From: Gottfriedia acidiceleris
GTDB lineage: Bacteria; Bacillota; Bacilli; Bacillales; Bacillaceae_G
Direction: 5' to 3'
Length of the DNA stretch: 62,480 nucleotides
NCBI RefSeq assembly: GCF_002128425.1
Contig: NZ_NESS01000018.1
Location: 1-62,480 of the forward strand
The stretch's first letter is position 1; every line of letters starts with the position of its first letter. A program made the translations under genes and the position numbers. This document shows positions 1-62,480 of the stretch, one piece after another. The notes below the pieces were generated by a model. It made no database searches. It had not been told where the DNA came from and saw only the letters and a program-made list of their open reading frames with translations.

Positions 1-260
1 TACTAAATCTCATATTTTGCTTCTTTACTTACTCATGAACACCTTATGAGTTACTAAATCCTAGGTTTTTGATTCTTTCTTTACTCATGAACACCTTATG
101 AGTTACTATATTTCATCTTCTTGCTTATTTACTTACTCATGAATACCTTGAGTTACAAAATCCAATATTTTTGCTTCTTTACACATCATAACCTGTTACA
201 AGTATGGTATTTTCATATTTTTGTGTTTTCTCCAACTCATGAACATGAGTATATTATGAT
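1..260. repeat. 52-bp tandem palindromic repeat, array A
   Basis: Units begin with ACTCATGAACACC followed by TTATGAGT. Copies start at 31, 83 and 135, with decayed copies near 183 and 235, so the period is 52 bp. Each unit holds an inverted repeat (ACTCAT / ATGAGT) and a T-rich spacer of about 30 bp. The window starts inside a spacer, so the array probably continues to the left. The same unit recurs at 19.5 kb and 62.4 kb in the same orientation. Confidence 0.9.
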
Positions 261-275
261 CTTTCAATACAAATA

Positions 276-311
276 AAAAAATTGCTTATACTCTTTTATA
301 AGCAATTTTTT
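276..311 (-). terminator. Terminator of the cstR-rhodanese operon
   Basis: A perfect stem AAAAATTGCTTATA / TATAAGCAATTTTT with a 6-nt loop lies 11 bp after the rhodanese stop codon, with a T-run on the reverse strand. Confidence 0.85.
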
Positions 312-321
312 AGCATTTTAT

Positions 322-618
322 TTATTCAATTTCTCCTGTCCAAGCAAGCATACCGCCAGTCATATTCACAACATTAAAACCATGACTTTCTAAAAATTGT
401 ACTGCTCGACTACTTCTCCCACCAGCATGACACACAACGATATATTCATTATTTTTATCTAAATCAGCCATACGAAACTCAATTAAACCAAGTGGAATAT
501 GCGTCGCTCCAGGGATCATTCCGTTCGATACTTCATCAGCCTCGCGAACATCAATAATATTAACTGTATTTCCATTCTTTAATAGCTCTTCAAGTTTTTC
601 TGCTGTAATTTCTTTCAT
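322..618 (-). CDS. Rhodanese-like sulfurtransferase, single domain
   Basis: This 98-residue protein is a complete single rhodanese domain, probably cytoplasmic because no signal or membrane segment is visible. The catalytic cysteine is C63 in the loop CHAGGRSS, preceded by the usual IIDVRE strand near residue 21. Rhodaneses move sulfane sulfur through a cysteine persulfide. The start has a good ribosome binding site (AAGGAG). It is the last gene of a three-gene operon after a CstR-like repressor and a membrane-anchored rhodanese, which suggests a role in handling persulfide or reactive sulfur. The in vivo sulfur donor and acceptor cannot be read from the sequence. Confidence 0.92.
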   Translation of the reverse strand: MKEITAEKLEELLKNGNTVNIIDVREADEVSNGMIPGATHIPLGLIEFRMADLDKNNEYIVVCHAGGRSSRAVQFLESHGFNVVNMTGGMLAWTGEIE

Positions 619-18888: not shown

Positions 18889-19269
18889 TCAACATTGAGG
18901 TTGATTTTTGCTTAATCCAATCTTTTTTAATAAATAGACCAACATATCTTTTTCAGCTGAATTTAGTTCAGAAAATAAAGAATGAATCATTTCACTATGT
19001 TCTGGAAAGATGCAACTTATTACTCTTCTCCCCTCTTCAGTCAACGCCGCATAAATAACTCGTCGATCTTTTGGACAATGAATGCGTTTAATATATTGCC
19101 TTGCCTCTAATTTATCTAATACATAAGTCATATTTCCGCTTGAGATTAAAATCCTTTTTCCAATTTGTTGAATTGGCTGATCTCCTTTATGATAAAGCAA
19201 TTCTAAAACAGCAAATTCAGTTAAATTCAAACCGATACATTTAATATTATTAATCGAAGCATCAGTCAA
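18889..19269 (-). CDS. MarR-family regulator, start uncertain
   Basis: From the TTG at 19269 it has 126 residues containing the MarR winged helix: LNLTEFAVLELLYHKGDQPIQQIGK, then SSGNMTYVLDKLEARQYIKRI, then PKDRRVIYAALTEEGRRV. MarR proteins usually carry an extra N-terminal dimerisation helix. The frame stays open upstream and encodes NEISTNSLQLYSEICKANRI, which fits that helix. The only ribosome binding site (AAAGGAG, 19355-19349) points to a non-standard ATA codon at 19338 as start, and no ATG/GTG/TTG is in frame there. The gene may therefore use a rare start or carry a damaged start codon. It is adjacent to the SDR gene, its likely target. Confidence 0.8.
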   Translation of the reverse strand: MTDASINNIKCIGLNLTEFAVLELLYHKGDQPIQQIGKRILISSGNMTYVLDKLEARQYIKRIHCPKDRRVIYAALTEEGRRVISCIFPEHSEMIHSLFSELNSAEKDMLVYLLKKIGLSKNQPQC

Positions 19270-19531: not shown

Positions 19532-19866
19532 ATCATGAGCTCTTCATGAGTATGTTATTTTCACGTTTTTACCTGTTTTACTTACTCATAAACCTCTTAT
19601 GAGTAACTATATTTCACTTTTTTCCTTTTTTACTACTCATGAACCTCTTATGAGTAACTACATTTCACTTTTTTGCTTTTTTACTTACTCATGAACCCCT
19701 TATGAGTAACTATATTTCACTTTTTTCCTTTTTTACTTACTCATGAACCCCTTATGAGTAACTACATTTCACTTTTATGCTTTTTTACTTACTCATGAAC
19801 CCCTTATGAGTAACTATATTTCACTTTTATGCTTTTTTACTTACTCATGAACCTCTTATGAGTAGT
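19532..19866. repeat. 52-bp tandem palindromic repeat, array B (seven units)
   Basis: Units start at 19532 (decayed), 19584, 19635, 19687, 19739, 19791 and 19843: five steps of 52 bp and one of 51. Each has TACTCATGA, a 5-nt C-rich loop, then TTATGAGTA, which can form a 9-bp stem with one G-T pair. The 29-bp spacer is nearly identical between units (ACTAYATTTCACTTTT then T-rich). It lies between the divergent marR and GNAT-nitrilase genes. Confidence 0.93.
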
Positions 19867-20096
19867 CTAGTCGTTAAATTTTCTATTAAATGAATATATT
19901 TCTCTGCAAAAAGCTCTTGCGTTTTCATTATCTGAACCAGAATCAATTGTAAATGGAAATATTAATCCTTTTACTCGTATTTATTCCATATTGAAAAGGT
20001 AAATTATGGGTATCCTAACTGTGAGAATCGAAAATCCATAGACCATCTAATATGGATTCTTCGTAGGTGAAACATTTATATTTAGGACGTGAGATT

Positions 20097-21644
20097 ATGT
20101 CAGAGACAGATATGTCAAAATACGAGAAGAAAATTGAAGTTCGAAATATACGTATGGAAGATATTGATGAGATTATGAGGTTATCAAGCCGTTGTTTTCC
20201 TGGTATGGAAGGATGGAAACGCGAACAATTAGAAAGTCATATTCGAATTTTTCCTGAAGGTCAGTTTTGTGTAGAGTATGAAGATAAAATTATTGGTTCA
20301 TGTTCAAGTTTAATGGTTGATTTTGATGAGTATGATGATCAGCACACTTGGAATGTCATAACAGATAATGGTTATATTACAAATCATGATCCTAATGGGT
20401 TTAATTTATATGGAATTGAAGTTATGGTTGATCCAGAATACCGTCGGATGAAAATTGGCCATCGTCTTTACGAAGCTCGAAAGGAACTGGCTCGACAATT
20501 AAATCTTCAAAGTATTATCATTGGTGGCCGAATCCCAAATTATCATAAACATAGAGATGAAATGTCACCACGTGAATATGTTGCAGCCGTAGAAAAACAC
20601 AGTATTTATGACCCAGTTTTATCTTTCCAATTAATGGAAGGTTTTACAATTAAACGGATTAATACACGTTACCTTCCGGATGATAAAGCGTCAGATTCCT
20701 TTGCCACTTTGATGGAATGGAGTAATATTGACTATCTTCCAAAATCTAAACGCGTTTATCGAGCATCATTCCCAGTTAGAATATGTGCAATACAATACAT
20801 GATGAAAAAGATCGATTCATTCTCTGATTTCACGAAGCAAATCGAGTATTATGTAGACGTCGCCGCTGATTTCGGTTCAGATTTTGCTGTTTTCCCAGAG
20901 TTGTTTACAACACAATTGATGTCTTTTCTAGAAGAAAAACGCCCCGATCAGGCTGTTCGTAGGCTTGCGACTTACACTGAGCAATACATCGAACTTTTTA
21001 CAGAACTTGCTGTACGTTACAATGTCAATATTATCGGGGGATCTCATTTTGTTGAGGAAGAAGGTAATATCTACAATGTTGCTTATTTATTTAGACGAGA
21101 TGGTACGATTGAAAAGCAATTAAAAATTCACGCAACTCCTAATGAGCGAAAATGGTGGGGAATTTCAGAGGGTAACGAGATTCATGTGTTTGACACAGAT
21201 TGCGGAAAAATCGCTATTCAAATATGCTACGATATCGAGTTTCCGGAACTTGCTCGTATTGCAGTTGATCAAGGAGCAAATATTATTTTCGTTCCATTTT
21301 GTACTGATGATCGCCAAGGCTATCTCCGTGTTCGTTATTGCGCTCAAGCAAGAGCAATCGAGAACCAAGTATATACTTGTATCGCAGGTACCGTTGGGAA
21401 CTTAACACATGTAGAGAATATGGACATTCAATATGCACAATCTGGTATTTTCTCCCCTTCCGATTTTGGGTTTGCAAGAGATGGTATTGTTGGTGAATGT
21501 GATGCAAATGTTGATACTGTCGTAGTCGGTGATGTTGATCTTGAAAAATTAAGACGTTCAAGAAATACGGGATCAGTCCGTCAATTACGCGATCGACGAC
21601 GCGATTTGTATCGAATTGAATTTAAGAATTTAAAGTTAGAATAA
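20097..21644 (+). CDS. GNAT acetyltransferase fused to a nitrilase-type amidohydrolase
   Basis: This 515-residue two-domain protein starts with a GNAT domain (about residues 10-195; acetyl-CoA-binding region VDPEYRRMKIGHRLYEARK), followed by a carbon-nitrogen hydrolase domain (about 220-515). The hydrolase has the catalytic Glu in FAVFPELF, Lys in QLKIHATPNE and Cys in IQICYDIEFPE. The fusion suggests sequential amide hydrolysis and acetylation of an amine or amino acid derivative, but no substrate is known to me. Start at 20097 follows GGACGTGAG; an in-frame GTG at 20067 is less likely. It is monocistronic, and repeat array B precedes it. Confidence 0.92.
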   Translation: MSETDMSKYEKKIEVRNIRMEDIDEIMRLSSRCFPGMEGWKREQLESHIRIFPEGQFCVEYEDKIIGSCSSLMVDFDEYDDQHTWNVITDNGYITNHDPNGFNLYGIEVMVDPEYRRMKIGHRLYEARKELARQLNLQSIIIGGRIPNYHKHRDEMSPREYVAAVEKHSIYDPVLSFQLMEGFTIKRINTRYLPDDKASDSFATLMEWSNIDYLPKSKRVYRASFPVRICAIQYMMKKIDSFSDFTKQIEYYVDVAADFGSDFAVFPELFTTQLMSFLEEKRPDQAVRRLATYTEQYIELFTELAVRYNVNIIGGSHFVEEEGNIYNVAYLFRRDGTIEKQLKIHATPNERKWWGISEGNEIHVFDTDCGKIAIQICYDIEFPELARIAVDQGANIIFVPFCTDDRQGYLRVRYCAQARAIENQVYTCIAGTVGNLTHVENMDIQYAQSGIFSPSDFGFARDGIVGECDANVDTVVVGDVDLEKLRRSRNTGSVRQLRDRRRDLYRIEFKNLKLE

Positions 21645-61561: not shown

Positions 61562-62209
61562 ATGTTAAAAGTAGGCAATTTAAAGGAAATTGAACAAACC
61601 ATTTTTAATCATACAGGTCCGATCATCCAAACAATAGATCGCGATATTGAGATTCTTACTCGCCAAGAGGAACCATTAGTAGTCTTACTTGATAATGTTT
61701 TAAGTGATGAGGAATGTGATGAGCTAATCAAACATGCGAAATTACGTATGAAACGGTCAAAAATCGGGTTATCTCATGAGGAAAATGAGATGCGTACAAG
61801 TAGCGGTATGTTTTTTGAGGAAAGCGAAACGGAACTTATCAAACGCATTGAAAAACGAATCGAAACGATTATGAATATACCAATCGAACATGCAGAACCT
61901 TTACAAGTCCTTCATTACGAACCAGGGCAACAGTATAAACCGCATTTTGATTACTTTTCCAATCATCGGACAAATAATAATAGGATCAGTACTCTCATTC
62001 TCTATTTAAATGATGTGGTAGAAGGCGGCGAAACGATTTTCCCTTCACTTAATTATTCTGTTGCTGCAAATAAAGGCATGGGTTTATATTTTGAATATTT
62101 TTATCAGGACGAAGCAATCAATGAACTAACTATTCATGCAGGTAGCCCTGTTATTAGTGGAGAAAAATGGGTTGCGACTCAGTGGATGAGACGTCAACGT
62201 ATTCGCTAG
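61562..62209 (+). CDS. Prolyl 4-hydroxylase-like 2-oxoglutarate/Fe(II) oxygenase
   Basis: This 215-residue protein resembles B. anthracis P4H. The iron ligands are H128 and D130 in YKPHFDYF and H192 in LTIHAGSP; K202 in GEKWVATQWMR binds 2-oxoglutarate. The N-terminal half (EPLVVLLDNVLSDEECDELIKHAKLRMKRSKI) is also typical. It hydroxylates proline in peptides, with collagen-like spore surface proteins as plausible targets, but that is inference. The ATG follows AAGGAGATGTGACAA. Repeat array C begins about 145 bp downstream. Confidence 0.93.
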   Translation: MLKVGNLKEIEQTIFNHTGPIIQTIDRDIEILTRQEEPLVVLLDNVLSDEECDELIKHAKLRMKRSKIGLSHEENEMRTSSGMFFEESETELIKRIEKRIETIMNIPIEHAEPLQVLHYEPGQQYKPHFDYFSNHRTNNNRISTLILYLNDVVEGGETIFPSLNYSVAANKGMGLYFEYFYQDEAINELTIHAGSPVISGEKWVATQWMRRQRIR

Positions 62210-62354: not shown

Positions 62355-62480
62355 TAGTAACTCATAAACACCTTATGAGTTACTATATCTCACATTTTTC
62401 CATTTTTATTTACTCATGAACACCTTATGAGTTACTATATCTCATATTTTTCCGGTTTTACTTACTCATGAACACCCTAT
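62355..62480. repeat. 52-bp tandem palindromic repeat, array C (cut by the window end)
   Basis: Units begin at 62360, 62412 and 62464, each exactly 52 bp apart, with ACTCATRAACACC then TTATGAGT and spacers close to array A. The third copy is cut by the window edge, so the array continues to the right. Orientation matches arrays A and B. Confidence 0.9.

Follow-up and report, generated by a model that had tools for sequence, protein, structure and literature searches.

A dispersed family of palindromic repeat arrays with an unusually strict 52-bp step in Gottfriedia and other Bacillales

The intergenic DNA of Gottfriedia acidiceleris carries a real family of tandem palindromic repeats, one that is of a known general kind, is undescribed as far as we searched, and keeps an unusually strict step of 52 bp. 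The sequence varies but the step holds, a pattern suggesting that the spacing is read by something in the cell. Our preferred explanation, to which we give a probability of roughly 0.38, is that the arrays are helically phased scaffolds that act as DNA and are read at a five-turn step.

The window analyzed here, 62,480 nucleotides long, is an entire contig (C10) of a 4.77-Mb genome assembled in 45 contigs, and it holds three arrays (Table 1). An earlier note, made from the letters alone, had placed three arrays with a 52-bp period, 51 once, at these positions, and sequence inspection and TRF agree with it. TRF gives a period of 52 in all three arrays, and successive cores of array 2 are 51, 52, 52, 52 and 52 bp apart, the sole 51-bp step running from 19585 to 19636. 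Decayed copies at array edges, also claimed in that note, are present in arrays 1 and 2 and as relics in relatives. Two of its statements hold in part: the arrays share one orientation inside the window while the whole genome holds both, and spacers are alike inside one array while differing between loci and between genera. Arrays 1 and 3 lie at the two ends of the contig, so their lengths are assembly limits. Array 1 is truncated by the contig start and by synteny continues in contig C2; the C2 end and the window start border a single array in two related stretches (L006 and L076). Contigs C2, C4, C10, C16 and C45 each have an end within or next to an array of this kind, and the arrays probably break the assembly of this genome. 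The MarR gene as reader of array 2 was considered and set aside: arrays 1 and 3 have other neighbors.

Table 1. Repeat arrays of the window and the features next to them.
Feature	Position	Strand	Remarks
Array 1	1..260	+	Cores at 32, 84 and 136; decayed copies up to 260
Array 2	19532..19866	+	Cores at 19585, 19636, 19688, 19740, 19792 and 19844; decayed unit 19532-19555
Array 3	62355..62480	+	Cores at 62361, 62413 and 62465; third core truncated by contig end
Perfect 15-bp inverted repeat, terminator-like	276..311	-	6 nt between arms; between the rhodanese gene (322-618) and array 1
Rhodanese-domain gene	322..618	-	3' end towards array 1; neighbor only
MarR-family regulator gene	18889..19269	-	5' end faces array 2, divergent from it; neighbor only
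GNAT acetyltransferase + carbon-nitrogen hydrolase gene	20067..21644	+	5' end faces array 2; neighbor only
2OG-Fe(II) oxygenase-like gene	61562..62209	+	3' end towards array 3; neighbor only

The repeat unit reads CTCATGAACNNNTTATGAG on one strand, usually with longer arms, for example TTACTCAT...ATGAGTAA. It is an imperfect palindrome whose half-sites we take as CTCATGAA and CTCATAA because its inner G-T pair is nearly constant. The arms covary across species (ACTCAT/ATGAGT, CCTCAT/ATGAGG, GTCCTCAT/ATGAGGAC, GTTCTCAT/ATGAGAAC and GAACTCAT/ATGAGTTC), and the outer arms are variable inside one genome too. We measured this covariation against 500 shuffles in 80 distinct units, one per array, a set that includes orthologous arrays and whose rows are therefore partly non-independent. 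Paired cells made up 84.8% (shuffles 78.8, sd 0.7), cells changed on both sides numbered 69 (shuffles 32.5, sd 4.1), and the covariation score was 0.170 (shuffles 0.081, sd 0.009); no shuffle reached any of these values. Further pair types numbered 23 against 18.9 in shuffles, reached by 4 of 500, and pairs with a double change numbered 7 against 5.6, which 43 of 500 shuffles reached and which is not significant in these 80 units. Slid controls were only 34–50% paired. The strongest double changes fall in the pair adjoining the core (A-T 39, C-G 24) and two pairs further out (T-A 62, G-C 14); the pair formed by columns 4 and 30 is unpaired in 49 of the 80 units. Template switching in palindromes can give covariation without function. 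Two subfamilies (L112 and L114 against L111, L119 and L125) have similar leading-strand arms and an inverted hairpin loop.

Copies of the unit are numerous in the genome and in several relatives, as a genome-wide search of the kind proposed in the earlier note made clear. At up to three mismatches the whole genome holds 119 matches to the motif ACTCATGAACMCCTTATGAG, 58 of them forward and 61 reverse, a count in which a near-palindrome may match both strands and places may figure twice; a reversed-motif control has none in the same genome. Requiring of an array two or more cores with two strong ones among them, and excluding weaker ones such as L107, we found at least 24 arrays in this genome among the matches listed, from the window and stretches round 100 of the 119 places. 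Their flanks align at ~80–97% to Gottfriedia luciferensis, G. acidiceleris and several 'Bacillus sp.' genomes; AFS055030 was grouped with the Gottfriedia-like genomes by unit similarity only. Among the genus genomes, pattern counts are 81–110 in six, 31 in one, 5–15 in three and 0–1 in three (G007, G009 and G011), so the arrays have no essential role. Within the order, one or more matches at 51–53 bp are present in 99 of 397 genomes. Outside the genus, 23 genomes in 13 families have at least three with both strands summed, as counted from the table and not by inspecting each, so that palindromes may count twice; at least three control matches occurred in 2 genomes of the same scan. A phylum-wide draw matched in 7 of 248 other genomes, none resembling the 52-bp family: the four matches of G400 resemble a shorter repeat, and the others have one or two.

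The step is nearly invariant even when no spacing is asked for. We scanned with the 19-nt core alone, obtaining at least 105 stretches, of which 17 (outside Bacillales or doubtful) were left out and to which those of the G. acidiceleris genome were added. Among the matches listed, which make up 99 arrays in 15 genomes (8 Gottfriedia-like and 7 others), the spacing is exactly 52 bp in 466 of 527 cases and within 51–53 in 499. Where arrays have at least four units, the modal step is 52 in 68 of 69 among the matches listed, and 103 in the remaining one. The rule extends beyond the genus: in the 18 listed arrays from Robertmurraya, Neobacillus, B. marasmi and Bacillus sp. FJAT-29790, 128 of 146 spacings are exactly 52, and by eye their spacers are unlike those of Gottfriedia except in T-richness. 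Core identity between genera is partly by construction, as loci were picked by exact core match; arms and spacers were free. Two of these stretches, L043 (Robertmurraya siralis) and L051 (Neobacillus mesonae), by eye alternate two spacers in a higher-order unit of ~104 bp.

Spacers also change length far less often than their sequence divergence predicts. They diverge from the array consensus at 0.091 per site, and 324 spacings show 27 length changes, for an indel/substitution ratio of 0.028, while flanking intergenic DNA compared between species diverges at 0.098–0.108 per site with a ratio of 0.094–0.104 (31 locus pairs, three gap scorings). Relative to substitutions, spacer indels are thus 3.4–3.7 times rarer than in flanking intergenic DNA (expected 92–102, observed 27; Poisson p 1.3e-15 or lower), in a comparison that sets within-array against between-species differences and uses locus pairs that share loci and are not all independent. 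The other genera give a ratio of 0.029 (expected 48–53, observed 15; p 2.1e-8 or lower). Step length is thus under constraint, whether through selection or through how units are made.

Fifty-two base pairs equal five turns of B-DNA, and the earlier note had proposed that the period serves helical phasing, an idea that is plausible and so far weakly tested. Among the matches listed, odd spacings fall at 41–43 bp five times and at 44–47 bp never. Against flanking indel sizes this gives Fisher p values of 0.019, 0.008 and 0.001 under three gap scorings, in a post hoc test that rests on five events and in which the counts 5 and 4 were entered by hand. Together with an array in G102 that carries CTCATGA at a 41-bp step, these unusual step lengths are a hint of helical phasing. 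Pairs of CTCATGA at 54–84 and 20–50 bp, sought in 150 genomes of the order, were mostly single matches. The repeated series in these control ranges, among the matches listed, were coding-like ones with steps of 36, 39 and 42, the 41-bp array of G102, and offsets within known units of the G. acidiceleris genome and G015; G041, with 16 and 18 matches, lies outside that list. CTCATGA tandem repeats at 36, 39 or 42 bp occur in G037, G061, G073, G108, G123 and G136, and such repeats probably encode His/Glu-rich proteins.

How might such arrays work as a scaffold? Imperfect palindromes set every five turns would all face one side of the helix, where a putative dimeric or multimeric DNA-binding protein, or a reader of extruded cruciforms, could assemble cooperatively along the array, much as at a chromosome-structuring site. 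Lying mostly behind gene ends and off promoters, arrays may change copy number by slippage or unequal recombination, and homogenization would let the unit sequence drift fast while the palindrome and the step are kept. We favor this reading because of the fixed step, the spacer-indel depletion, the covariation, the lack of a G-T excess and the helical-phase hint. Our search for a binding protein or a co-occurring gene found none, which counts against it, and it is weakened by the three genus members with 0–1 matches and by a core conservation that is partly built in.

The main rival, a reading we regard as a serious if tentative possibility, is a selfish or neutral satellite-like repeat that is seeded rarely, grows by slippage, keeps its palindrome by template switching and answers no need of the cell. 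The history of individual loci bears on it. By masked flanks the 81 Gottfriedia-like arrays among the matches listed fall into 44 independent loci, of which 19 are common to at least two genomes; the earlier note had made conservation in relatives a touchstone, and the same loci are indeed occupied. The random positions, random spacing and lack of conservation that it had named as counting against its proposal were looked for and not obtained. We traced three sites (A, B and C) through all 13 genus genomes and found arrays in 6 at site A, 4 at site B and 3 at site C, with single motifs persisting in some others; G015 at site B and G012 at site C end at contig ends, where absence cannot be judged. 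At site A, genomes without an array show, by eye, decayed relics (G014), other sequence (G005, G015, G016 and G011), a short gap (G009) or no array (G007). Arrays thus vary in length, decay or vanish between relatives. By eye, their units diverge far more between species than the ~94%-identical flanks and yet are alike within a species: the array units undergo concerted evolution. Four array-free orthologues of site A (L257, L262, L263 and L264) carry a GC-richer repeat-like sequence behind the same gene, GAGGCTCAG ... ACGGAAAGC in three and a related stretch in the fourth, which is probably a dispersed repeat. The patchy counts within the genus, the decayed or absent arrays at all three sites in many species, the different repeat that takes site A in some array-free species and the harmless location of the arrays away from gene starts all speak for the selfish reading. 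It leaves unexplained the retention of 52 bp across genera with differing spacers and the 3- to 4-fold shortage of spacer indels.

An unlikely alternative is that the arrays are transcribed as tandem-hairpin RNA, serving as a sponge, a 3'-UTR stabilizer or a processed small RNA. Folding of array 2 greatly exceeds that of shuffled sequence whichever strand is taken (z -10.9 and -7.9), most arrays lie behind genes, and RNA-seq reads cover three STAR-like elements in one S. aureus strain, according to the part of PMC5294841 available to us. The units are non-coding and intergenic, as first described, and the mapping against gene ends that the earlier note called for puts them mostly behind 3' ends: by our own gene caller and among the matches listed, a gene 3' end faces 21 of the 24 arrays in this genome, and 12 of 13 arrays between co-directional genes lie closer to the 3' end. 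They keep clear of gene starts, with the exception of array 2, which sits between two 5' ends. A terminator-like hairpin, however, separates the gene end from the array at 17 of 24 examined sides; the rule was lenient and had no background control, and the gap is long in two of the 17 cases (779 and 1596 nt). The site-A array starts directly after such a hairpin belonging to the upstream gene. Moreover, the five outer pairs of 619 units hold 92 G-T and 151 A-C pairs (column make-up predicts 117 and 224), and since G-T is not above A-C, nothing favors an RNA of this strand. Promoter-like sequences near array 2 show no excess (6 found, 6.8 expected), and Rfam has no match over the arrays, either in the window (E up to 1) or at 12 loci (gathering). 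On balance the evidence leans slightly towards action as DNA rather than RNA. Two stretches outside arrays match the Staphylococcus sRNA S414 (RF02895) just above the gathering score, at L112 3523-3691 and L074 6429-6604.

Less probable again is a directional leading-strand signal tied to the replication fork or to chromosome segregation. GC skew is an established leading-strand mark in Firmicutes; we called the leading strand from it, and gene direction mostly agrees. Judged by the side bearing ATGAG[TG]AAGTA, a polarity defined after seeing the sequences, the arms tend to keep one orientation relative to replication, agreeing with the leading strand in 21 of 23 informative arrays of this genome and in 48 of the 54 from relatives; counted by independent loci, the agreement is 35 of 41 informative ones with 3 ambiguous (p 4.9e-6), all among the matches listed. 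In contrast, loop polarity has no significant bias relative to replication (17 to 27 loci, p 0.17), and strand composition could shape the arms. Spacer purine polarity agrees with the leading strand in 17 of 24 arrays here (p 0.06), and the figures for relatives and for other genera are 47 of 57 and 16 of 18, again among the matches listed; these mixed results kept purine content from use as the main polarity. Twelve arrays can discriminate between replication and transcription, their nearest 3'-facing gene lying on the lagging strand; purine polarity there sides with replication in 7 and with the gene in 5, so the two could not be told apart.

Mobilization of a REP-like element by a RAYT (Y1) transposase is very improbable. 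The repeat is indeed a short, dispersed, extragenic palindrome in high copy. The transposase does not track it: Y1_Tnp (PF01797) has no match in the array-rich genomes G008 and G013, one match with an internal stop in the genome of the window, and five matches in G007, which has one pattern match. Units also run head to tail at one fixed step. The RAYT family is thereby largely refuted as the mobilizer, and another recombinase is possible. The earlier suggestion of a mobile small repeat is weakened by these results and by the lack of any motif match in plasmids, phages and viral contigs at the sensitivities used. A CRISPR array or remnant, suggested by palindromic repeats at regular spacing, can be dismissed, as the earlier note had judged, by spacers that are repeated rather than unique and by Cas1 (PF01867) in 0 of 13 genus genomes; the control matched in 9 of 14.

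The arrays belong to a general kind of repeat already known from other bacteria. The bcr1 element of the Bacillus cereus group is also a dispersed Bacillus repeat, and is a longer single element. BIMEs alternate in orientation. Dispersed extragenic palindromes in clusters are likewise found in REP/BIME elements with RAYT, in what we saw of PMC2817692 and PMC8266576; the arrays here differ in running head to tail at 52 bp and in lacking a Y1 transposase that tracks them. The closest known kind are the STAR elements of Staphylococcus aureus. In the accessible part of PMC3532100, these are intergenic direct repeats with recurring locus-specific spacers at dozens of loci per genome, with copy-number change within a locus, patchiness among species and no assigned function. 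Intergenic direct repeats, recurring spacers and variable copy number are all found here. The STAR motif, T(G/A/T)TGTTG(G/T)GGCCC(C/A), is 14 bp long in the same source and is absent here, TNTGTTGNGGCCC occurring in 0 of 320 loci among the matches listed. STAR motifs are reported 40–44 bp apart at gapR (54–58 bp with the 14-bp motif) and as repeats of about 50 nucleotides elsewhere (PMC3532100, in the part seen). The arrays here have 33 bp between 19-nt cores at a step of 52, a figure whose comparison with the published STAR ones depends on the motif boundary. STAR loci are also described in that part of PMC3532100 as differing between species, whereas nearly half of the loci here are shared. 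Such arrays would fall into the class of 'false CRISPR' tandem repeats in what we saw of PMC5294841, resembling CRISPR in their regular palindromic repeats and differing in their non-unique spacers and in the absence of Cas1 from the genus genomes. The parts of two repeat surveys available to us (PMC2267715 and PMC6344855) hold no match to the 52-bp unit. In the literature searched, which subscription journals mostly lie outside, we found no description of a 52-bp repeat, and the letters CTCATGAACCC appear, among the matches listed, in four papers unrelated by title. The view that no described family matches stands within this literature and Rfam.

Might the step be more general than the family? 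We think it doubtful, yet worth stating, that Bacillales carry undescribed phase-locked palindromic arrays of unrelated units, whose 52–53-bp step would equal five helical turns, which would be aligned with the replication strand and served by a putative conserved reader, and which would be a satellite-DNA counterpart with a structural job. This idea is raised because of units in three stretches, a small sample. L157 has, besides the core motif, 6.4 copies of an unrelated 52-bp unit, TTCGGACA...TGTCCGAA. The other two come from a survey for periods of 40–70 bp in 79 contig-start stretches (1.41 Mb, 56 genomes), picked regardless of repeats. L184 has a 52-bp array with a perfect stem, whose unit shares TCAT..AACCC..ATGA with the main family and is thus perhaps related to it. 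L192 has two 53-bp arrays with non-significant stems; one of the two falls inside a 181-aa open frame and counts as coding by the open-frame test. Further arrays in the survey were non-coding at 63 and 65 bp and coding-like at 54, 54 and 42. Of 172 arrays, 29 are non-coding and without the motif and give a Rayleigh R of ~0.67 for helical multiples, in a post hoc test where 13 of the 29 have a period of 20–21; a general helical rule for non-coding Bacillales tandem repeats is an idea only. Non-coding tandem arrays of 20–21 or 40–42 bp, some with GCGATT, occur in L232, L203, L219, L131, L079 and L051. Periods of 20–21, 31, 40–42, 52–53 and 61–63 bp lie near multiples of the helical turn.

A fast-changing sequence with a kept step length speaks for some physical ruler inside the cell. 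Arrays of this kind end contigs in this assembly and can be mistaken for CRISPR. Array-rich, array-poor and array-free species coexist in one genus, which makes the question directly testable. If no protein reads the arrays, the shortage of spacer indels calls for a mutational explanation; if one does, they would represent a new chromosome-organizing or insulating system in a large bacterial group.
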